A stretch of 35,524 nt of DNA from an uncultured Gammaproteobacteria bacterium. Its GTDB lineage: Bacteria; Pseudomonadota; Gammaproteobacteria; CAMYKB01. The notes below the pieces were generated by a model. That model saw nothing but the letters and a program-made list of their open reading frames with translations, did no database searches and was not told the origin of the DNA. A program made the position numbers and the translations under genes. The first letter of the stretch is position 1; every line of letters starts with the position of its first letter. The stretch is from NCBI GenBank assembly GCA_947258875.1, contig CAMYKB010000028.1:912-36435 (forward strand), in the 5' to 3' direction. Shown one piece after another: positions 13,547-23,585 of the stretch.

Positions 13547-14875
13547 CTAACCCTGCGCTCTGCGTGATAACGCTTGCTCAACATCGCTTGCCCACTCGAT
13601 GTTCTCACCGCGCTTCTCGCGCGCATCGTGGATCAGTTGCAGATTGCGTGCCGTGGTTTCCGGCTCCCAGGACTCGCGTACGTTCGCCAGTGCATCAGAT
13701 AACGCGGCTGAAGCCCCCGCTTCGTCCTTGGCAAGCACCGCCAGCTCCAGTCTCGTGGCATGATCCCAATAATCGGGTTTGCCACTGGCAATACGTCGTT
13801 CCACTCCATAACTGACTACCGGGATCAGTTGTTCGCGGCGCGGGTCGGGAGGATCTTTCAGCTCCATTAGCGTAACCGCATTGATGCCCGGATAGGCATC
13901 GCGCCAGTCTGCCTCGAAACCTTTCAGGTAGGCAGCGATGGCCTTATCCAGTAACCCACGCGCCAGTAATTCATCGCCTGCGTTAAGTGCTGCCTCCCAG
14001 CGGTCTTTGTAGACGCGCCCTAGGATGCCGTAGGTCTCACTACTCGGCCCGCGTTGCGCTATTAAATCAGTGAGAATCTGTTCCGCCTCCTCACCGTGCC
14101 CGGCGCGGTTGAGCGCCAGACCCAATTGCTCTTGCACCATCACGGTTGCAGCCAGCGGCGATGACATCTTAGGTACCAGCGCGATCATATCGTCCCAGGA
14201 TTTAACTGCGCGATAAGACAGAAACAAATCGATCACTACTGCGGCCTCAGCATCGGCAATGTCACCCAGTTCGGTCGCTACCGTCCTCACCGCATCGACA
14301 CCTTGTTTGCGCGCCTGCGCCAGTCGTCGCTTCATCGACTCGGAATAATGGACGCGATCACGAAATACATCAGTCTTCAAACGCTGGATATCGGGGAATC
14401 CCTCGACCATTTGGAATACGGGGCTATCCGGGGCTGCATCGCGGGCTTCACGCAGTTGATCCGCAAGCGCGGATTGCGTGCTTGTCATGTTATCCGGCTT
14501 GCCACCTGCATCTAACCGGTAAGGCAAGGCACGCAGAGGGGCCACATCAAACGGTAGCTGTCCCGCGCCCTCGGCAAACAGCAATACGGTGCTGTGTGGC
14601 CGCACTGCATGGCGAAGACCCAGCTCATAGAATACATTGGCATTAGCTGTCGTGAGGTCACATACGGCGTACTCACAGAGGATAAGGCGTTCGAACATGG
14701 GCTTATGGATAATGCCCCCGGTCATTTCTTCATCCGCGCGCAGCGGTTCGAGATCTGCTGCTTCAATAGCCGGCCTGATAAGTTCCTGATAAACCGCATC
14801 AAAATCGACCAGCTGCCCACCGCTGGTCGGCTTTTGACCGAAAGGCATCAAGACAAAACAGAGTGGATTGGGCAT
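13547..14875 (-). CDS. TIR-like / deoxyribosyltransferase-like domain fused to TPR-S (DUF4071)
   Basis: This 442-residue protein has two parts. Residues 5-120 form a Rossmann-like domain starting CFVLMPFG, with FERLILCEYAVCDLTT and NVFYELGLRHA. The last carries Glu84, as in nucleoside 2-deoxyribosyltransferase- and TIR-related nucleotide-processing domains. Residues about 190-430 are helical, with TPR-like pairs. They match the TRAFs-binding/TPR-S (DUF4071) family through ETYGILGRVYKDR, YPGINAVTL and DYWDHATRLE. The same block recurs in the protease encoded at 20565-22313. Family context points to biological conflict or immunity, with the N-terminal domain sensing or cleaving a nucleotide and TPR-S acting as scaffold. 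The enzymatic role is inferred. The ATG gives MPNPLCFVLMPFG, a normal start for this domain. Confidence 0.8.
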   Translation of the reverse strand: MPNPLCFVLMPFGQKPTSGGQLVDFDAVYQELIRPAIEAADLEPLRADEEMTGGIIHKPMFERLILCEYAVCDLTTANANVFYELGLRHAVRPHSTVLLFAEGAGQLPFDVAPLRALPYRLDAGGKPDNMTSTQSALADQLREARDAAPDSPVFQMVEGFPDIQRLKTDVFRDRVHYSESMKRRLAQARKQGVDAVRTVATELGDIADAEAAVVIDLFLSYRAVKSWDDMIALVPKMSSPLAATVMVQEQLGLALNRAGHGEEAEQILTDLIAQRGPSSETYGILGRVYKDRWEAALNAGDELLARGLLDKAIAAYLKGFEADWRDAYPGINAVTLMELKDPPDPRREQLIPVVSYGVERRIASGKPDYWDHATRLELAVLAKDEAGASAALSDALANVRESWEPETTARNLQLIHDAREKRGENIEWASDVEQALSRRAQG

Positions 14876-15047: not shown

Positions 15048-16745
15048 TTATAGTGGACTATCTTTGCCTTGTACAGCCGAAGACAATGCCGAAACCAGAC
15101 CTGCAATATGTTGAGTGCCCAAACGTGACAATCGGAAAAGCCTCAGTTCTACTTCAGAAGACTCTATATTAGGCGAGTCGGCACTCACCTGGTCCCAGGC
15201 GTTGGTGATAGTATTCTCCAAAAAACCATAGTCTGTAGTATCATCTATCGCCAGAACAACGCGCTCAAGAGGCACCACATTGATAAGTTCAGTGAGTTCG
15301 CGTACACAGCCGGCATTTTGTGGTGAGAAGCCACGCAGGTCCATAAATACGACGTCACTTTCTTCGACAAGCCTGGATAACACCATCTCCCAGGTATCGT
15401 CGTAGCAGAAAAAATCATTGACACGATAGCGACTGTCAAAATCCGGTTTTACGTCAAGTTGTAACATCCTGCTATCGAGCATTGCTTTTCCATCAATAAA
15501 CAGGCGCGAAATTCTACCGCTCAGAAATTCCAGGAACTCCTGTGGCTCGACAGTGGTTGTTGCCAGATCCGGCCCTGCAATAAGTTGCACGCTGCCGGCG
15601 TAACGCCAACGCTTTGTGATCGCGTCGAATAACCTCTCACTCCGTTTCCCCAATGAAAACACCCTTAACAGCAGGAGTCTTGCGTTGAATGTTTTAGAAT
15701 TTTGTTGTGCCTGAACTGTTCTAAATCCAATCCATACTGTCATTTTATAAGCAATAAATGCAGCCAACCCGGATAAGACCCAGAGTGGCGCTTCGAATAC
15801 GAGGCCAATTGACTGGCTAATAGCAAACAGCACCCACAGCGCATCGAGTGTGATCGATTGGTCGCTGAGTTTTTTAGATTGATAACCCCACCGGATCCAG
15901 GTGACTGCCAGCCACCCTACCCCCGCAAACATCAAAAATCCACCAATGACGATTCCGATAAAGGTAGCCGAGGCACTCAGTCCGATACTGGACCCCACAT
16001 TAGAGATTATGCGAAGAAGGCCTGCATTAGCCCCGGCGACCGCCAACGCTATCACTGATCCTGTGGCGGATATAACCATAAAAGTCAGTACCATTGGGCC
16101 TACCGCACGAATACGCCGAGCAAGGAATGCAAACAAGAGTACAGTTGGCGGGAGATTCGTTATAGTCCATAACATAACTATCTGATTCAGGGTGAGTTGT
16201 GTACTTCTGGCAACGGCTACCGACGTGATTAGCAAAAGGATAACGAAGTAGATAAATCCAGTCATCAACATGACGCGCCGCGTCGATGCAGCTATGAAAT
16301 TCACTGTCAGTACTACCGGCCAGGCGTAAACCCAAAAAACCATGAGATAGCGAACCACAGACACTTCCATGTTGCCTGAAACCAAAACGGCCATGACCAT
16401 AACCAGCGTGAACACAACTCCAGCAAACCCGTAGATCAATGCGGCGCGCCAGGCACCATGTTGCGCACATGTGTATATCGGAGATTTCAGGACCCGCCCT
16501 GTTTCTTCGACACGCAACTTCAGCCCAACACCCACTGTCGGTGCGGCATGCGAGCCTGTATGTAACGTGTTCCGGTTACCCTCGCCTCTCACATGAGATC
16601 GTCTCCCCATTGTCCTAAGAACTGCGCGGCGATATAACCACAAGAGAAGCAGAGAGCATGGAAATGCAACAACTGACGCAACCAGAATGACGAAGGGTAA
16701 TTGCCCAGTCAAAGCAAGTGTAAGTGGATCAGCGTTCTGGGACAT
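15048..16745 (-). CDS. Polytopic membrane protein with cytosolic Rossmann-like C-terminal domain
   Basis: This 565-residue protein has one N-terminal helix (about 15-38), a polar loop, and then roughly seven to nine more hydrophobic helices between 100 and 340. From about residue 355 comes a soluble domain of around 200 residues with the markers FDAITKRWRYAGSVQLIAGPDLA (373-394), FFCYDDTWE (445-453) and SDVVFMDLRGFSPQNAGCVREL (463-484). The alternating strands and helices, and the VVFMDLRGFS strand followed by a Cys/Glu helix, suggest a TIR/SLOG-like nucleotide-binding fold. I cannot name the family. AGGAG precedes the ATG. It is divergent from the DUF4062 gene and may be the membrane effector or sensor of the island. 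Confidence 0.8.
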   Translation of the reverse strand: MSQNADPLTLALTGQLPFVILVASVVAFPCSLLLLWLYRRAVLRTMGRRSHVRGEGNRNTLHTGSHAAPTVGVGLKLRVEETGRVLKSPIYTCAQHGAWRAALIYGFAGVVFTLVMVMAVLVSGNMEVSVVRYLMVFWVYAWPVVLTVNFIAASTRRVMLMTGFIYFVILLLITSVAVARSTQLTLNQIVMLWTITNLPPTVLLFAFLARRIRAVGPMVLTFMVISATGSVIALAVAGANAGLLRIISNVGSSIGLSASATFIGIVIGGFLMFAGVGWLAVTWIRWGYQSKKLSDQSITLDALWVLFAISQSIGLVFEAPLWVLSGLAAFIAYKMTVWIGFRTVQAQQNSKTFNARLLLLRVFSLGKRSERLFDAITKRWRYAGSVQLIAGPDLATTTVEPQEFLEFLSGRISRLFIDGKAMLDSRMLQLDVKPDFDSRYRVNDFFCYDDTWEMVLSRLVEESDVVFMDLRGFSPQNAGCVRELTELINVVPLERVVLAIDDTTDYGFLENTITNAWDQVSADSPNIESSEVELRLFRLSRLGTQHIAGLVSALSSAVQGKDSPL

Positions 16746-17256
16746 ACATCTCCTATACTTAATTCATCCTCAGTGCCGTTGCTTGTTTCTGGCAGATCAG
16801 CATTCACGAACAAGTTTGAATACTTCGAACCATAGTTCCTGGTGCCTCACAATGAGAACATGAACTAGATCACTGGCCGCCAAGTACTTTTTTATAGCGC
16901 CAGATATGAGTATATCCTGAACCTGAGTGAACTTAGATAAATATGATAACTAACACAAGGCTGCGACAAACGATGATATCTATGCAATCTGCAATAACCA
17001 ATAAACTCTTACCGTAATGTTTATCACCAAATCGGATAGCCATAACACACAAAGATTACCGGTCGATAATAGCGCTCATTCTTAATTTAGGGTTAGTTTA
17101 ATAACCGTCCATCTCTGCAATGTGCCAGCAACACGGTAATCTGGAATAATCACAAAGTTGTACTATTCTCTTAGTACTAGATTTATTTTAGACATCACGT
17201 GATCTCGCAAGCAACCGTTCCGATTCCGCCAGCTATCGTCATGGAGTGACTTGAAA
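16746..17256. other. Divergent promoter region between two membrane-effector genes
   Basis: This AT-rich stretch of about 510 bases separates the minus-strand polytopic protein gene from the plus-strand DUF4062 gene. It must hold both promoters. No convincing -35/-10 pair, operator or RNA gene was identified by eye, and no ORF longer than about 60 codons with a ribosome binding site is present. Confidence 0.45.
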
Positions 17257-17940
17257 ATGAAAAGCAAACCACTCGTCTTCATCAGCTCAACATCCGATTT
17301 GCAGGATGAACGAACCACAATCGCGGCTTCACTAAAATCTGATTACGAACCTTATCTCTATGAAGAAGATCGGGCGCGCCGAAAATCACCAGAGGATCGT
17401 TGTCAGGAAGTCATTCAGCACTCTGAGGTGTTTATCGGAATTGTCGGAGAAGAATACGGCTCATCTTATAAAGACACTGATCCGCGTTCAATTTGCGAGT
17501 GGGAATTTGATCAGGCCAGAGAAAATAAGGACATCGCTATCATGATGTTGTTGGCGAAAACACCTGAACCGACCGCAATAGACCCCAAACAAAAACGCTT
17601 TCGAGACAAGGTGACGCAATTTAGAAGTGGTGTCTGGTGCCGATTCTTCGAGTCGACCCAGGAACTCGTTATTTTGGTGCGGAAATCGCTGACCACATGG
17701 CTGGTCGAATATTTTGTACAATCCCGGGAAAACGCTGATAAACGACGAGATTGGCTAAGCCACCTGATTGCCTGGCTTGGAATCAGCACCGTTGGGGCGC
17801 TCGCGCTGGTCATTGGCGCCAATTTTATTTTCAACTTTTTATCCCCAAACCACACCATCGCACTCTGTGGACTGACTTTATCAGTACTTGTTTTATTGCT
17901 GCTGCTGTATTTTACCGAGGTAGGAGGAAAAAATGTCTGA
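17257..17940 (+). CDS. DUF4062 domain protein with two C-terminal membrane helices
   Basis: This 227-residue protein begins with a DUF4062 (TIR-related) domain: VFISSTSDLQDER at 7-19, VFIGIVGEEYGS at about 58-69 and CEWEFDQA at about 80-87, where a Glu lies at the TIR-like active-site position. Two hydrophobic helices, about 168-190 and 198-218, anchor it with the domain in the cytosol. DUF4062 proteins are frequent in predicted immunity loci, often as N-terminal sensor or effector modules. ATG 17257 sits 10 bases after GGAG (17243-17246); TTG 17251 is closer but less likely. Its stop lies within the start region of the next gene (8-base overlap), so the two are translationally coupled and probably form a complex. 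Confidence 0.85.
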   Translation: MKSKPLVFISSTSDLQDERTTIAASLKSDYEPYLYEEDRARRKSPEDRCQEVIQHSEVFIGIVGEEYGSSYKDTDPRSICEWEFDQARENKDIAIMMLLAKTPEPTAIDPKQKRFRDKVTQFRSGVWCRFFESTQELVILVRKSLTTWLVEYFVQSRENADKRRDWLSHLIAWLGISTVGALALVIGANFIFNFLSPNHTIALCGLTLSVLVLLLLLYFTEVGGKNV

Positions 17941-18685
17941 AACCGAACATGATCAGGATTTTTCACTTTTATCTGAGCGCATAGCCAACACAGTCGCACG
18001 TGAAGACAAACGACGACGTAGTATTCTCACTCTTTTCATACTGCTGACATTAGTTCCGATCGCTATCGGTGCATACATATTCATGCGCGGCAAAGATGAG
18101 TCAGGCTGGATACAAAAAACGGCTCAGCAGACGGCCTCACAAGAAATAATGAGTATACGCCCACTTATAGATCAGACACGTGAATTAAGTGAAGAACTAC
18201 CTGAAATACGACGACTTAGCGAACAGCTACCACAACAACAACAGCTACTCACAAGCGTCCAGAATAAACAGGATGCGCAAGCCAATGAATTGGAAACATT
18301 TCGCCCACAAATACAACAACTCACTAAACAATTACCAGATCAGGAACTACGCTTATCTACACTTGAGCAAAGGCAGGATAGTAACGTTGCTCTACTCCAA
18401 CGCCAATGGGAAGAATCACTTAATGAGATACGAAAGCAGAACACGACGAACCTAAAACGATTAGAAGAACGCCTCAAAGCGGCCCCTACTATTGATCCTG
18501 GTTTTGCCAGGGAGCTACGTGAAATCAGGAAACAACTCGACACACAAAACAAAATGATTACCCAGATCTCCGCAGAACAGCGCTCGTTTGCTTCACGTAT
18601 TGGCCAAAACACGGATAAATTGAATGAACTTGATCGCAGGCTAGAAATACGAAGAATTGAGCCTTCAGTTATAACTCCTCGCTAG
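17933..18685 (+). CDS. Membrane-anchored coiled-coil protein, partner of the DUF4062 protein
   Basis: This 250-residue protein is not assignable to a named family. It has a short charged N-terminus with RREDKRRR-like basic residues, one membrane helix at about 34-52 (LTLFILLTLVPIAIGAYIF), and then some 190 residues of predicted coiled coil. Repeats of the type LSEELPEIRRLSEQLPQQQ and LTKQLPDQ are regularly interrupted by Pro. The basic N-terminus suggests an inside N-terminus, which would place the coiled coil in the periplasm. It overlaps the DUF4062 gene by 8 bases. It may sense envelope change and signal to the DUF4062 domain across the membrane; this is inference. Confidence 0.75.
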   Translation: MSETEHDQDFSLLSERIANTVAREDKRRRSILTLFILLTLVPIAIGAYIFMRGKDESGWIQKTAQQTASQEIMSIRPLIDQTRELSEELPEIRRLSEQLPQQQQLLTSVQNKQDAQANELETFRPQIQQLTKQLPDQELRLSTLEQRQDSNVALLQRQWEESLNEIRKQNTTNLKRLEERLKAAPTIDPGFARELREIRKQLDTQNKMITQISAEQRSFASRIGQNTDKLNELDRRLEIRRIEPSVITPR

Positions 18686-18908: not shown

Positions 18909-20276
18909 TCAGTCCAATTTAGCGAGAAGCTCAAGATGCCGTTTCGCAAAAACACACAAGAATTGCTTATTAACTCGTCGTATTTCATCCAAAGCCACAG
19001 TAACTTGCTTCGGATTATTGTCGCTTATCGCTGTCATGAGCTCGCCGCGTACCTCTGCCCACCTGTTAGAGGCTTCGCGGATCACATCCTTATCATCTTG
19101 CTCATCAAACAGTTCTTCAATGTTTTCTATTACTTTAAAGCCACAATCAATCGCCTTGAGCTCGACTTTTTTGATCGACATTTTTACTTTATTCAGATAT
19201 TTGGATACTTCTTCATCCGTTGCAGGATTCATCATCAGACGCCGTATTTTAAAACTATGCTCGTCAATAACGCCCCATCTAAAATCCTGCGCCATCTGCA
19301 GGAGATCACAAATACTTCCAAGGTTACCTCTAACCTCTGGCTTACATTGTCCGGTGGCCTTGATAAGCAGTATCTTGAAACAAATCGACTGATCAGACAT
19401 CTTATCCAAACGGTAGACGACCGGGCGATAGAGCTGCTGTTTGTCACCCGGAGGATGGAACCTCGAGATAGGATATCTCGGCACCCTCTGTAGACATGCA
19501 TCCTGCATGATACACCCGAGAGCATCTATCCATCCGAGTGATTCTTCATCTAACTGTTGCTTGATGTCAAACCATTCACACCGGTCAGTGTTCAGGTTAA
19601 ATAGCTTCAACGACGAGATGTCTGAAGTAACCTCCGCTTTGTCGTCGATACACCCGTCTTCTCTGAGCTTCGTTATTTGGTTCCCCCCCAAAGTAAGGCG
19701 GAAAAAATTTGTCCACCAGAACTGCTCTGGTTTAGTACCGAAAGCATCAACAATCTCCGCAGCGGTACTGGTAAGGGTATCGCGGTAATCTTCTACAAGG
19801 TCGTGTCGGATCGCAGGCACTCCCTCGCGAGGCGGCTCTCCGTACAACTGCCCCAATAGATTTACTACATTATGCTCGTCAGCCGGAACAGTCTTCCAAC
19901 GCACAATCGGATTGGGTGGCACAATGCCAGGGCTATGCAAACAGATTGGCGCGTGCTTACCTGCTTTAATGCCTGCGGAGAAATAGCCGGTCTCATAGAG
20001 ACACCAGTCCCACTCCGCAGATGGGTCAGTATACAATAGAAATAGCCAGTCGGAACGCTCAAGTGCGGCATGCACTTCATCATCCCAGTTATAGCCAAAC
20101 GCGATGTTTTCGGAAAGAAACATTTCTAGTTGGACGCCCCCAAGAACGCCAAGTTTCTTCTTGATCGTTTCAGCAAGCTTCTTGTCTTTTAGTTTGTGAC
20201 TAATAAAAATATGTAATTTTCCGTCATCATCGACCGCCCGATGAGGAATCTCTGTGACTGCTGCTACAGTGTTCAT
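18909..20276 (-). CDS. TIR-domain protein with uncharacterised C-terminal region
   Basis: This 455-residue protein has an N-terminal TIR domain at about 20-135: LHIFISHKLKDKKLAETI, then FLSENIAFGYNWDDEVHAALERSDWLFLLYT, then WDWCLYETGYF, with candidate NADase Glu95. The remaining 300 residues are mixed alpha/beta, then helical near the C-terminus, and are unrecognised; they may sense a trigger or bind a partner. Bacterial TIR proteins commonly deplete or convert NAD+ when an immune system fires. ATG 20276 was chosen because GAGG sits 6 bases upstream and the TIR fold then begins at residue 20; an upstream TTG (20327) has no support. It lies downstream of the protease gene on the same strand, about 290 bases away. 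Confidence 0.83.
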   Translation of the reverse strand: MNTVAAVTEIPHRAVDDDGKLHIFISHKLKDKKLAETIKKKLGVLGGVQLEMFLSENIAFGYNWDDEVHAALERSDWLFLLYTDPSAEWDWCLYETGYFSAGIKAGKHAPICLHSPGIVPPNPIVRWKTVPADEHNVVNLLGQLYGEPPREGVPAIRHDLVEDYRDTLTSTAAEIVDAFGTKPEQFWWTNFFRLTLGGNQITKLREDGCIDDKAEVTSDISSLKLFNLNTDRCEWFDIKQQLDEESLGWIDALGCIMQDACLQRVPRYPISRFHPPGDKQQLYRPVVYRLDKMSDQSICFKILLIKATGQCKPEVRGNLGSICDLLQMAQDFRWGVIDEHSFKIRRLMMNPATDEEVSKYLNKVKMSIKKVELKAIDCGFKVIENIEELFDEQDDKDVIREASNRWAEVRGELMTAISDNNPKQVTVALDEIRRVNKQFLCVFAKRHLELLAKLD

Positions 20277-20564
20277 AATACACCTCACATATGCTGCATA
20301 CCTCGTCAACTTGGTATTTGGAGGCAACCCTGTACTTTTCCGCCTTTAGCTACTCAGGGTGCATAGTTGACAGGCATAGCTTCAGAATCCTTCTTGACTC
20401 ATATATCGTAGTCCTCTGATGGATTCAGGAAAAGTAAGAAATTCGCATGAAGTGTGTAACTTATTACCTATCCATAGGGAAAGTTGGTGAAGACCAATCG
20501 CTACAAGTAAAGATACAAAAAAACATGCGTTGCCGTACTCTGTGGGTTCAGCTTTACCCTGTAT

Positions 20565-22313
20565 TTATCCCAGCTTGGCTGCAACCGCATCTAGAATGTT
20601 TTGGAAATAAAGGCCTTCGTTGGCTGGATAGGTTCCGGCTTTGCCATTCAGCCTCTCCATGTTCATGCCGCCGGCATGGTGCAACGCGAGCAAGTCCCAT
20701 TGCTGGTTGAATACGGGACTGCCCGAGCTGCCACCCTCGGTGGGTGCCCGGTAATGCACCTTGGGTTTCTCGTGATCGAGAAGAAGGTTGTCATCTATGG
20801 AGTAGCACAGGCCGCCTCCACGGGGATGACCTATGACGTAGACTCGCTGGTTCTTGCCCACCAGCGGAAGCCGCTTGGCAATCGGATAGGGATTTTCATG
20901 TTCGACGAGTGATTGAAGGCTCAGGATTGTGCAGTCCAATTCGGTCCGGGGCGAACTGAAGAGGATCTTATCTACCTCGAACTCCTTGTTTGGATCTTTT
21001 GCCTCGAAACGGATTCGGACCTCGTCCGCGGGTAGAGCAGCCGGCATGGAACTCTGCTCCGCCAGATCATTGCTGATTACATGTGCGTTAGTAACCACCA
21101 CCCATTTCTGCTCGATGCTTGGGTGCACATCCGCACCGCGGATAAGGAAACCGCTGCCACAACCGTTACCAGCGCGGTCACATATTTGGGCTACTCCGGC
21201 AGCCCGATCCAGTCCCATACGATACCACTGGAAGGTCTTGTAGCGCTCCTTGCCGAGGATTTGTTCAAACTGCTTGTCCGCCTCCAACGCTGCAGCGGTA
21301 GCGAGGTTTCGTGTCGGATTTTCGATCTCCACCCGACCGCCCTCCTGGCGCAGCAACGCCGCGCGCAGCAGGTGAAGGATCTGCGCATGCTCCTTTTTGT
21401 CATCATCCAGTTTCCAGACTTCCTCGAACTGGCGCAGGGTACTGGCGTATTCGAAGGAATCGGCGTATTTGTTTTCCTGGGTATACTTGAGAATCCACTC
21501 GAGGGCTTGCGGGTAATCCTTTAATGCCAGGCAAGCCTCTCCTGCAGTTGCGTAATCCCACAGATCGGTTTTCTTTTTTGACGTGATCCGTTTCAGGATA
21601 GTTTTTGCGGTTGTCGTAGCGTTGGGAAAGCCCTTGGAGAGAGGCATCTTGTCGCGTTTCGCGCGCTCCAGCAGGGCCACGGTATTAATCCCGTGCCAGA
21701 TGTGGTCCTGCTTTGCCGCATACACCCCGGCATAGTCTGAAACCGCATCCTCCAGACGCTGTCGGATTATGACGCCCGGGCGTTTGTCTGCGGCAGCATC
21801 CATGTACATCTGTTTCCGCGCGCGACCCATGAGGCCCCGGGTTTCCGCTAATTCGACATCATTGTCTTCTTCCAGGCAGTCTTGTTCCAAAATCTGGAGC
21901 ACACCGAGGCCAGCTGTGATGTAACCTAGATCGAGCATCGCCTGGGCATATTGGCGACGAATGTTCGGCTCATCCTGTCCGGTCTGTATCAACACATCAG
22001 CGACCTCGATGATCAAATCGAAATACCGCTTGCGACGCAGGGTACTGAGAATGGTTTTTGACTCAGCGAAGGGATAGGGCGTCGCGCGTGACCGCAGGTG
22101 AACGGCCAGCTTGCTACACAGCTCTTCAGCCCGTGGCCGGTCGAAAGTACCGAGCGCAATTTTCAACTCCTTGACAAAGCTCTTGGGATGCGTGGCAATA
22201 TTCTCCCGGACATGTTCCACGAGTTTTCTGGATATGATTTCTATCTCAGTGACGTCATACGCTCTGGCTGCAGCATCGATCTGATCGAGGAGACCCTTTA
22301 TGTTGCCGGCCAT
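20565..22313 (-). CDS. TPR-S (DUF4071) scaffold fused to a trypsin-like serine protease
   Basis: This 582-residue protein joins a helical N-terminal part with a C-terminal S1-type protease. Residues 95-300 carry TPR-S landmarks: AETRGLMGRARKQ, WHGINTVALLER and DLWDYATAGEA. These align block by block with the TIR-like/TPR-S protein at 13547-14875. The protease at about 380-575 has His411 (VVTNAHVI), Asp460 (TELDCTIL) and nucleophile Ser530 (TEGGSSGSPVF), so the triad is complete. With no signal peptide it should act in the cytosol, probably held inactive by TPR-S until triggered. ATG 22313 has GGAG 5 bases upstream. It starts 13 bases after the alpha/beta-hydrolase stop, so the two form one operon. 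The longer frame from 22427 overlaps that gene and is unlikely. Confidence 0.87.
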   Translation of the reverse strand: MAGNIKGLLDQIDAAARAYDVTEIEIISRKLVEHVRENIATHPKSFVKELKIALGTFDRPRAEELCSKLAVHLRSRATPYPFAESKTILSTLRRKRYFDLIIEVADVLIQTGQDEPNIRRQYAQAMLDLGYITAGLGVLQILEQDCLEEDNDVELAETRGLMGRARKQMYMDAAADKRPGVIIRQRLEDAVSDYAGVYAAKQDHIWHGINTVALLERAKRDKMPLSKGFPNATTTAKTILKRITSKKKTDLWDYATAGEACLALKDYPQALEWILKYTQENKYADSFEYASTLRQFEEVWKLDDDKKEHAQILHLLRAALLRQEGGRVEIENPTRNLATAAALEADKQFEQILGKERYKTFQWYRMGLDRAAGVAQICDRAGNGCGSGFLIRGADVHPSIEQKWVVVTNAHVISNDLAEQSSMPAALPADEVRIRFEAKDPNKEFEVDKILFSSPRTELDCTILSLQSLVEHENPYPIAKRLPLVGKNQRVYVIGHPRGGGLCYSIDDNLLLDHEKPKVHYRAPTEGGSSGSPVFNQQWDLLALHHAGGMNMERLNGKAGTYPANEGLYFQNILDAVAAKLG

Positions 22314-22326
22314 CGCTGCTCCAGCA

Positions 22327-23274
22327 TTACAATGTGAGCAGCTTCGACAGATGGTTGCACAATGCCTGCTGCCCGTAATACTTATAGCTGCTATGGCGCC
22401 ATTTTCCTGAGTTGCGTACTTTCTCATCGATCACCACTTGATTTCCGCCCTTCTGGTAGTCGTTCTTGATGCGGGCATCAAAGGCCACCGGGTCAAGACG
22501 GTCGTAGACGTTGACCCAGTCGCCGGCAACTCTGTCCGACGGGAAAGCGTCGCGCTTGTCGTAATTCGGCTTAAAGTTGTCGTGCACCTCGCTAATACCG
22601 AGCGGACTACCCACGGTCATGTAGGCGCTGATCGAAGGGCAGTCGGGAACGTTTTTAAGGCAATCGTAGGAAATCACCGTGCCCATGCTATGGCTGACCA
22701 CCACATGCGGCCCTTCCCGATTCGCGGTATCTTGTTTTAACTGGTCCACGAAAAGCCGACGGATATGATCCTGCACCTGGTATTCCTCGCCGGGTCGCGG
22801 GGAGAATTTAGCGTTAAACAGGTAGTGATGCACGTCCTTCAGCAGCGCTTTCATAACCCGCCGCTTGATGAACCATGGCAAAGGAATCGCTTCGAAGTTG
22901 AGTGCCTCCAGTTCGTCTTCATTCCCCTCCAGAGGAGGTGGCGCGTAATGATCGCCCTCCGGGGATTCTATGTCGAAACCGAGTTTTTCGCGAAAGGACT
23001 CAACGAAGGCCTTTTCTTTGGCGGGCAGGTCCTCGACCCACGCCAGCTCCTCGTCTGTTGCCGCTGTGCCCAACCCCTCTTCCACGCTTTCAAAATCAGC
23101 ATCTGGGGCCACTGGCTCGGCATACATCACATCGGCCCAGTAGACCATCGAGGTGGAGACACCACCCGCGGCGAGATCCAGGCCTCCCTGTGCCAGGTAG
23201 GCTTCCCAGTTTTCGAGCAATTTTTCCTTAGGCGGCTTGTTGGCGATACCGTGTATAAACGTGACATGCGGCAT
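22327..23274 (-). CDS. Alpha/beta hydrolase of the conflict operon
   Basis: This 315-residue cytosolic alpha/beta hydrolase has an oxyanion-loop FIHGI at 6-10, nucleophile Ser196 in VSHSMGT, Asp261 in DRLDPVAF and probable catalytic His294 in WRHSSYKYYG. Between the oxyanion loop and the nucleophile lies an acidic insert of about 100 residues that may form a lid. The fold suggests an esterase or lipase; membrane lipids are a plausible target in an immunity context but nothing shows this. ATG 23274, with GGAG 8 bases upstream, is preferred over TTG 23280. It is the first gene of the operon with the TPR-S protease and lies about 235 bases from the end of tRNA-Glu. Confidence 0.83.
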   Translation of the reverse strand: MPHVTFIHGIANKPPKEKLLENWEAYLAQGGLDLAAGGVSTSMVYWADVMYAEPVAPDADFESVEEGLGTAATDEELAWVEDLPAKEKAFVESFREKLGFDIESPEGDHYAPPPLEGNEDELEALNFEAIPLPWFIKRRVMKALLKDVHHYLFNAKFSPRPGEEYQVQDHIRRLFVDQLKQDTANREGPHVVVSHSMGTVISYDCLKNVPDCPSISAYMTVGSPLGISEVHDNFKPNYDKRDAFPSDRVAGDWVNVYDRLDPVAFDARIKNDYQKGGNQVVIDEKVRNSGKWRHSSYKYYGQQALCNHLSKLLTL

Positions 23275-23470
23275 ATGCAATTCTCCTCTTTAGAAGATCG
23301 GCCGGGCCCGCTAAACGTTGCGCGCATTAAGTTAACCATACAACACATTAAAAATATGTCCACCAAAGCTATGGCCCCGTAGGCGCCAGCCACTGGGATT
23401 TGGCTGATAAAATCGCTCCCGGCAATTCTATCAAGCCCGCCCGGGATTCTCGTCAGCTCGGAAACCCCAC

Positions 23471-23509: not shown

Positions 23510-23585
23510 TGGCGTCCCCAAGGGGATTTGAACCCCTGTTACCGCCGTGAAAGGGCGGTGTCCTAGGCCTCTAGACGATGGGGAC
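23510..23585 (-). tRNA. gltT: tRNA-Glu (anticodon TTC)
   Basis: This 76-base tRNA on the minus strand begins GTCCCCATCGTCTAGAGGCC, has the anticodon loop CCCTTTCACG with anticodon TTC, and the T-arm AGGGGTTCGAATCCCCT. The acceptor stem closes as GTCCCCA/TGGGGAC, the discriminator is G, and CCA is encoded. The sequence is close to the bacterial tRNA-Glu consensus. It has its own promoter and terminator. Its 3' end faces the conflict island, the arrangement left when islands integrate at tRNA ends. The symbol is generic. Confidence 0.96.

Follow-up and report, generated by a model that had tools for sequence, protein, structure and literature searches.

The closest described systems are those of the pro-nucleases HamM, Avs1a and CanC, which carry two disordered insertions with a conserved Ile (HamM and Avs1a) or Gly (CanC) and depend on a trypsin or caspase partner for their activation; mutation of the sites reduces or abolishes defence (PMC12799240). 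A further point of comparison is provided by the VMAP systems, for which Kaur et al. report that the caspases always neighbour an alpha/beta hydrolase and propose that the two act jointly (PMC7159879). Analysis of a 35,524-nucleotide stretch of DNA from an uncultured gammaproteobacterium (the window) identified a probable operon of comparable design. On the basis of sequence comparison, structure models and analogy with these systems, it is likely that this operon encodes a two-component effector, in which a pro-lipase is gated by proteolysis at two sites and the protease senses its signal through a TPR-S region.

Both genes of the operon lie on the minus strand. The upstream gene (22327..23274), called from its open reading frame and ribosome binding site, starts with ATG and encodes a 315-amino-acid alpha/beta hydrolase that is predicted to be a pro-lipase or esterase. 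A ribosome binding site, GAGGAG, was read from the sequence 8 nt 5' of this ATG (23283..23288, minus strand). The downstream gene (20565..22313), called from its open reading frame and Pfam matches, starts with ATG, has GGAG upstream and encodes a 582-amino-acid TPR-S/V8-type serine protease. The first-pass annotation of this DNA had described these two genes, 13 nt apart and each with a ribosome binding site, and both reading frames were located accordingly. The catalytic triads that it had assigned, Ser196/Asp261/His294 in the hydrolase and His411/Asp460/Ser530 in the protease, were found at those residues and were invariant in relatives (52-53 hydrolases and 47 proteases). It had also placed the genes under one shared promoter, but promoter-like sites did not exceed the level expected by chance and so gave no support for a shared promoter. 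Operon organisation is proposed because the spacing is tight. No signal peptide was apparent in either protein on reading the sequences. In searches with PADLOC defence models, the hydrolase had no match and matches of the protease were partial and limited to the protease domain; no known PADLOC or NCBIfam defence system fully matched the pair.

Pfam searches of the hydrolase returned only alpha/beta-hydrolase models, all below threshold. The fold was predicted confidently by AlphaFold2 (pLDDT 82.8, pTM 0.85; 47 sequences, comprising the window and genome contigs, with rows from plasmid records left out). The codon of the nucleophile, Ser196, lies at 22687..22689 (minus strand) within the motif SHSMG and is invariant in 52 relatives. 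The nearest solved folds were lipases, although the similarity was weak (LipA, E 9e-4, TM 0.28), so that attack on membrane lipids is a guess.

The protease matched the Pfam models TPR-S (PF20308; E 1.6e-9, 38.7 bits against a curated cut-off of 27.6), Trypsin_2 (E 6.9e-17) and, in its N-terminal solenoid, PF13281 (E 5.6e-6), and was modelled by AlphaFold2 with a pLDDT of 89.3. Residues 1-344 were helical in this model and form a TPR solenoid (21282..22313, minus strand) that is the predicted sensor, as delineated by Pfam, profile and model, with the TPR-S match at residues 98-215. When the family profile was compared with solved chains, the N-terminal half matched the regulatory region of ASK1/MAP3K5 (5ulm, E 3.5e-5). 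The protease domain comprises residues 361-582 (20568..21233, minus strand). Against all solved chains, the protease profile retrieved Staphylococcus aureus V8 protease first (E 1.1e-9), followed by other glutamyl endopeptidases, Spl proteases and exfoliative toxins; Foldseek neighbours of the domain were FAM111A, DegS, V8 and SplA. The S1/oxyanion segment (20679..20741, minus strand) contains Thr525, Ser530 and His545, equivalent to positions 190, 195 and 213, all of which were invariant (47/47). His213 and Ser/Thr190 have been termed mandatory elements of glutamyl endopeptidases (PMC5508998). Other Trypsin_2 proteins encoded in conflict loci have Thr190 and His213 as well, so that these residues permit, rather than prove, specificity for Glu. 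From its sequence, the protease looks to be of V8 type, with a predicted glutamyl specificity.

The hydrolase alone was used as query against plasmids and 84,980 genomes of bacteria and archaea, so that the protease was no criterion of the search. At a cut-off of at least 200 bits, 52 full-length relatives were recovered. The first-pass annotation had made its reading depend on conservation of the pair across genomes, and a homologue of the protease lay directly downstream in 47 of the 52 loci, with gaps of -11 to 124 nt (median 6). Judged by record titles, pairs occurred in Proteobacteria, Bacteroidetes, Actinobacteria (Acidimicrobiia and Rhodococcus), Nitrospira and Acidobacteria, as well as on conjugative rhizobial plasmids, and the pair is mobile. 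A separate set of 398 genomes, sampled evenly across the phylum, contained two other genomes with strong hydrolase matches (G160 and G441), and the genes were adjacent in both. Hydrolase and protease distances were correlated across the 47 pairs (Mantel r 0.83, 0/5000 permutations), which as relatives are not independent. No close hydrolase relative was found in viral contigs, where there were eight more distant relatives of the caspase-paired type.

The remaining five hydrolases had other surroundings. One (L029, S. meliloti) had CHAT, S8 and trypsin neighbours, another (L034) lay beside a pentapeptide/TIR-like protein and had no protease in the DNA examined, a third (L038) was likewise without a protease in the DNA examined, and a fourth (L071) was head to head with the gene of a trypsin-endonuclease protein. 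The fifth was one of two copies on a Mesorhizobium contig (L053, 1187-3759 and 9001-9939); one copy was paired with a TPR-S protease, while the exception lay behind a small gene without a Pfam match and the gene of a V8-like trypsin. Separately, the protease gene of one Acidimicrobiia metagenome-assembled genome (L059, 9985-11549) was frameshifted into two overlapping reading frames, which could reflect assembly error or decay.

An acidic insert of about 100 residues before the nucleophile had been noted previously. Such an insert was present, but in the window protein it spans about 73 residues (residues 55-127; 22894..23112, minus strand), as delimited by the alignment of relatives and the AlphaFold2 model, and its C-terminal end lies about 70 residues before Ser196. 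It was present in all close relatives, with homologous edges and a variable middle, measuring 49-87 amino acids with a net charge of -3 to -20 (median -11). The first-pass annotation would have dropped its reading had the insert been missing or unrelated in homologues beside the protease, and this second check thus came out in its favour. Mean identity within the insert was 25%, versus 56% in the rest of the hydrolase. In the model, pLDDT fell below 50 only at residues 62-67 and 106-129, and the two disordered stretches of the insert were separated by a helix at residues 85-98. The insert is the predicted gate that would keep the hydrolase locked.

Two residues stood out within this variable region. 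Glu62 and Glu128 were the sole invariant columns between Tyr51 and Pro131 (53/53 sequences), and each disordered stretch contains one of them. Their codons, at 23089..23091 and 22891..22893 (minus strand), respectively, mark the predicted cleavage sites 1 and 2, with Glu at P1. Glu62 lay 9-13 residues past Tyr51 in all 53 sequences and exactly 11 residues past it in 42, and the motif [HYFLQ]E[SGA] was found at this position in 47/53, versus a mean of 1.6 in shuffled inserts. Glu128 lay a constant 3 residues N-terminal of Pro131, at the end of the disordered stretch 106-129. Because of this spacing and these motif counts, the invariance of the two residues is not an artefact of alignment; the patterns used to search for genome relatives covered neither residue. 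Even the divergent pair of G441 (L087) had A-E-S at site 1 and A-E-A at site 2.

More distant hydrolases, of 25-30% identity, adjoined caspase-family genes, usually directly upstream. In a joint alignment, where at this identity the register of site 1 is approximate, both gate positions of these caspase-paired hydrolases held Arg/Lys or Met/Gln, mostly followed by Gly, and Glu occurred in 0/19. The residues at sites 1 and 2 were R,R in L030, L084 and L179; K,K in L116 and L127; K,R in L083 and L128; R,K in L148 and L177; M,M in L131, L132, L141, L149 and L150; M,Q in L130 and L133; Q,Q in L140; M,R in L082; and M,K in L129. Three further hydrolases with caspase-model matches (L143, L145 and L166) were left out of the 19, as they belong to more distant groups in which the gate region is unalignable. 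The residue class was the same at both sites in 17 of the 19 (Fisher p 0.0007, uncorrected for kinship), as expected if a single protease cuts both. The adjoining caspases carry the sequence SDACRS, in which an Asp precedes the catalytic Cys by two residues. In MALT1 and metacaspases, P1 Arg is bound at this position. Prokaryotic caspase homologues have been described as cutting after positively charged residues (PMC6426788).

Hydrolase and protease were also found fused in single chains, with a trypsin in L135 and L163 and with a caspase in L179; the trypsin fusion L135 had Glu at both sites (RFE-A and AQE-G). Agrobacterium plasmids have a slot flanked by a ParB-type gene and a gene for a DEAD/DEAH helicase. 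Two plasmids (L026 and L028) held the V8-type pair there and two Ti plasmids (L131 and L132) a pair of caspase and hydrolase, with flanking proteins 77-93% identical. Since one plasmid slot holds either, the V8-type and caspase-type pairs are interchangeable cargo. It is likely that Agrobacterium plasmids use this hotspot more generally to carry defence genes. Taken on sequence comparison, the balance tips somewhat toward the view that, within one pro-lipase family locked by a removable insert with a cut site at either end, the P1 residues at both sites have changed together with the class of the partner protease, being Glu with V8-type TPR-S proteases and Arg/Lys or Met/Gln with caspases.

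The genes surrounding the pair were also surveyed. A TIR-domain protein (18909..20327, minus strand; Pfam TIR_2, 1.6e-7) is encoded 237 nt downstream of the pair and is a possible accessory, not a core component. Of the 47 other pair loci, 10 had a same-strand TIR gene less than 400 nt away and elsewhere it was absent; TIR genes were 2.6 times denser within 3 kb of pairs than further out. In 11 of the 47 pairs (L027, L052, L054, L057, L062, L063, L065, L066, L072, L073 and L075), the hydrolase gene was preceded, at a distance of 12-63 nt, by a GH108 muramidase-like gene, called by a shared sequence motif with a Pfam check in L057. Its product has a conserved C-terminal tail and is possibly a third effector, attacking the cell wall. 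A universal third gene was thus rejected, neither TIR nor GH108 being universal. In two loci, a large TIR protein of about 1,430 amino acids adjoined the pair, namely a TIR-nSTAND1-WD40 protein in L069 (4618-8982) and a similar protein in L027 (10853-15121); these are candidate sensors in some loci.

Within the window, a second TPR-S protein is encoded at 13547-14875 on the minus strand (TPR-S, 2.6e-27; MAP3K_TRAF_bd, 1.4e-48). Its N-terminal region matched a PADLOC TIR effector model (1.9e-6), and these matches make it a probable nucleotide-signal enzyme whose regulatory region resembles that of ASK1. The minus-strand gene at 15048-16745 encodes a multi-helix, membrane-like protein with a TIR-like C-terminal segment and without a Pfam family. 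At 17251-18685 on the plus strand, a DUF4062 protein whose C-terminus includes a hydrophobic stretch is followed by a coiled-coil protein; DUF4062 has recently been described as a TIR-like NADase in Swarozyc, an antiphage system (PMC13174449). The region from 12.8 to 23.3 kb has the look of a defence island and adjoins a tRNA-Glu gene, which lies just upstream of the pair (23510-23585). An integrative island at this gene was considered and rejected, as a search for direct repeats of the tRNA end found none.

We propose that the hydrolase would be made as a cytosolic, lipase- or esterase-like pro-enzyme whose activity is blocked by the acidic, mostly disordered insert. The TPR-S solenoid of the protease would detect a signal of infection or stress, possibly an NAD-derived product of the TIR protein where a TIR gene is nearby; a TIR-made nucleotide is a plausible ligand of TPR-S, but not a general one. 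The V8-type domain would then cut the hydrolase after Glu62 and Glu128, freeing an active site that may attack membrane lipids or another essential ester, and the cell would be stopped or killed. The pair would thus probably serve as a suicide switch when phages or other invaders attack. Sequence comparison establishes the pairing, the conserved triads, the joint inheritance, the predicted disorder, the two invariant Glu and their replacement in caspase-paired relatives. We infer cleavage, activation, substrate, trigger and defence role, and the chain from TPR-S sensing through cleavage at Glu62 and Glu128 to activation is drawn because the pair mirrors HamM, Avs1a and CanC and the VMAP neighbours.

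Other arrangements of the same two enzymes were weighed against this proposal. The protease and hydrolase might be independent effectors under one sensor, the former degrading host or phage proteins and the latter hitting lipids, with neither processing the other. Multi-effector cassettes are common in conflict systems, and the muramidase-like gene in 11/47 loci shows that several destructive enzymes can travel together. However, independence leaves unexplained why two Glu are invariant in otherwise variable, disordered linkers, why both residues shift with the class of the partner and why the protease matches glutamyl endopeptidases, and we regard it as unlikely. The same conserved sites and the same pairing would be predicted if the protease served to turn the hydrolase off, removing or degrading an enzyme that is otherwise always active, for safety or housekeeping; the sequence is silent on the direction of regulation. 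This off-switch is a distinctly poor prospect, as cleavage activates in the tested systems of the same architecture (PMC12799240) and keeping a lipase constitutively active in the cytosol would be costly.

It was also considered that the two Glu serve structure or catalysis in an ordinary esterase, to which the TPR-S protease is merely an operon neighbour. Glu128 abuts a conserved motif, ERIPLPW, and, placed as it is beside IPLPW, could be structural; moreover, both Glu were kept in the five relatives without an adjoining TPR-S protease, including L034 and L038. Glu62, however, lies in a disordered linker among poorly conserved neighbours, and the tight co-transfer across phyla, together with the independent fusions, speaks for a functional link between the two proteins. 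This last account is the least probable of those weighed. Two-site gating of the hydrolase by its partner protease is the reading that we prefer. It supports, and extends, the suggestion of the first-pass annotation that the protease might activate the hydrolase by cleavage, with the insert as a possible lid.

With this reading, coevolution and a double disordered insertion bearing P1-like residues are now seen in an unrelated, lipase-like effector; the gating principle itself is published. The exact candidate cut sites, Glu62 and Glu128, are named and directly testable, and TPR-S, homologous to the stress-sensor region of ASK1, would be tied to a zymogen cascade. A change of residue with the class of the partner would offer a route from sequence to protease specificity and partner identity. 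If that change is real, the family would represent a bacterial equivalent of zymogen activation that is aimed at lipids, with its wiring legible in the sequence of the effector.

As far as the consulted part of the source goes, the VMAP/MoxR-vWA ternary systems share with this locus the neighbouring peptidase and hydrolase, the hydrolases being of the same broad superfamily, but their peptidase is a caspase whereas that of the window is of V8 type, and no gate or cleavage site is proposed there for the hydrolases (PMC7159879), in contrast to those predicted here. A scan of the neighbouring proteins with Pfam, NCBIfam and PADLOC found no MoxR AAA, vWA or VMAP genes. With the S1B glutamyl endopeptidases S. 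aureus V8 and Esp, the protease shares the chymotrypsin fold, the His-Asp-Ser triad and Thr190/His213; V8, however, is secreted and activated by propeptide removal, whereas this protease is apparently intracellular and has an N-terminal TPR sensor. That N-terminus matches the same solenoid models as the regulatory region of ASK1 (PF20308 and PF13281), in which the output is a MAP3 kinase rather than a protease. The resemblance to HamM-HamA, Avs1a-Avs1b and CanA-CanC is broader. There, as here, the effector gene adjoins a sensor-fused protease of trypsin or caspase type, a conserved P1-type residue marks each of two disordered insertions in the effector, the trees of effector and protease coevolve, and effectors of one family are paired with trypsins in some cases and with caspases in others. 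The differences lie in the parts: an alpha/beta hydrolase in place of a metallo-beta-lactamase nuclease, candidate Glu in place of Ile or Gly at P1, and TPR-S in place of HamA, STAND or LmuA as the fusion partner of the protease.
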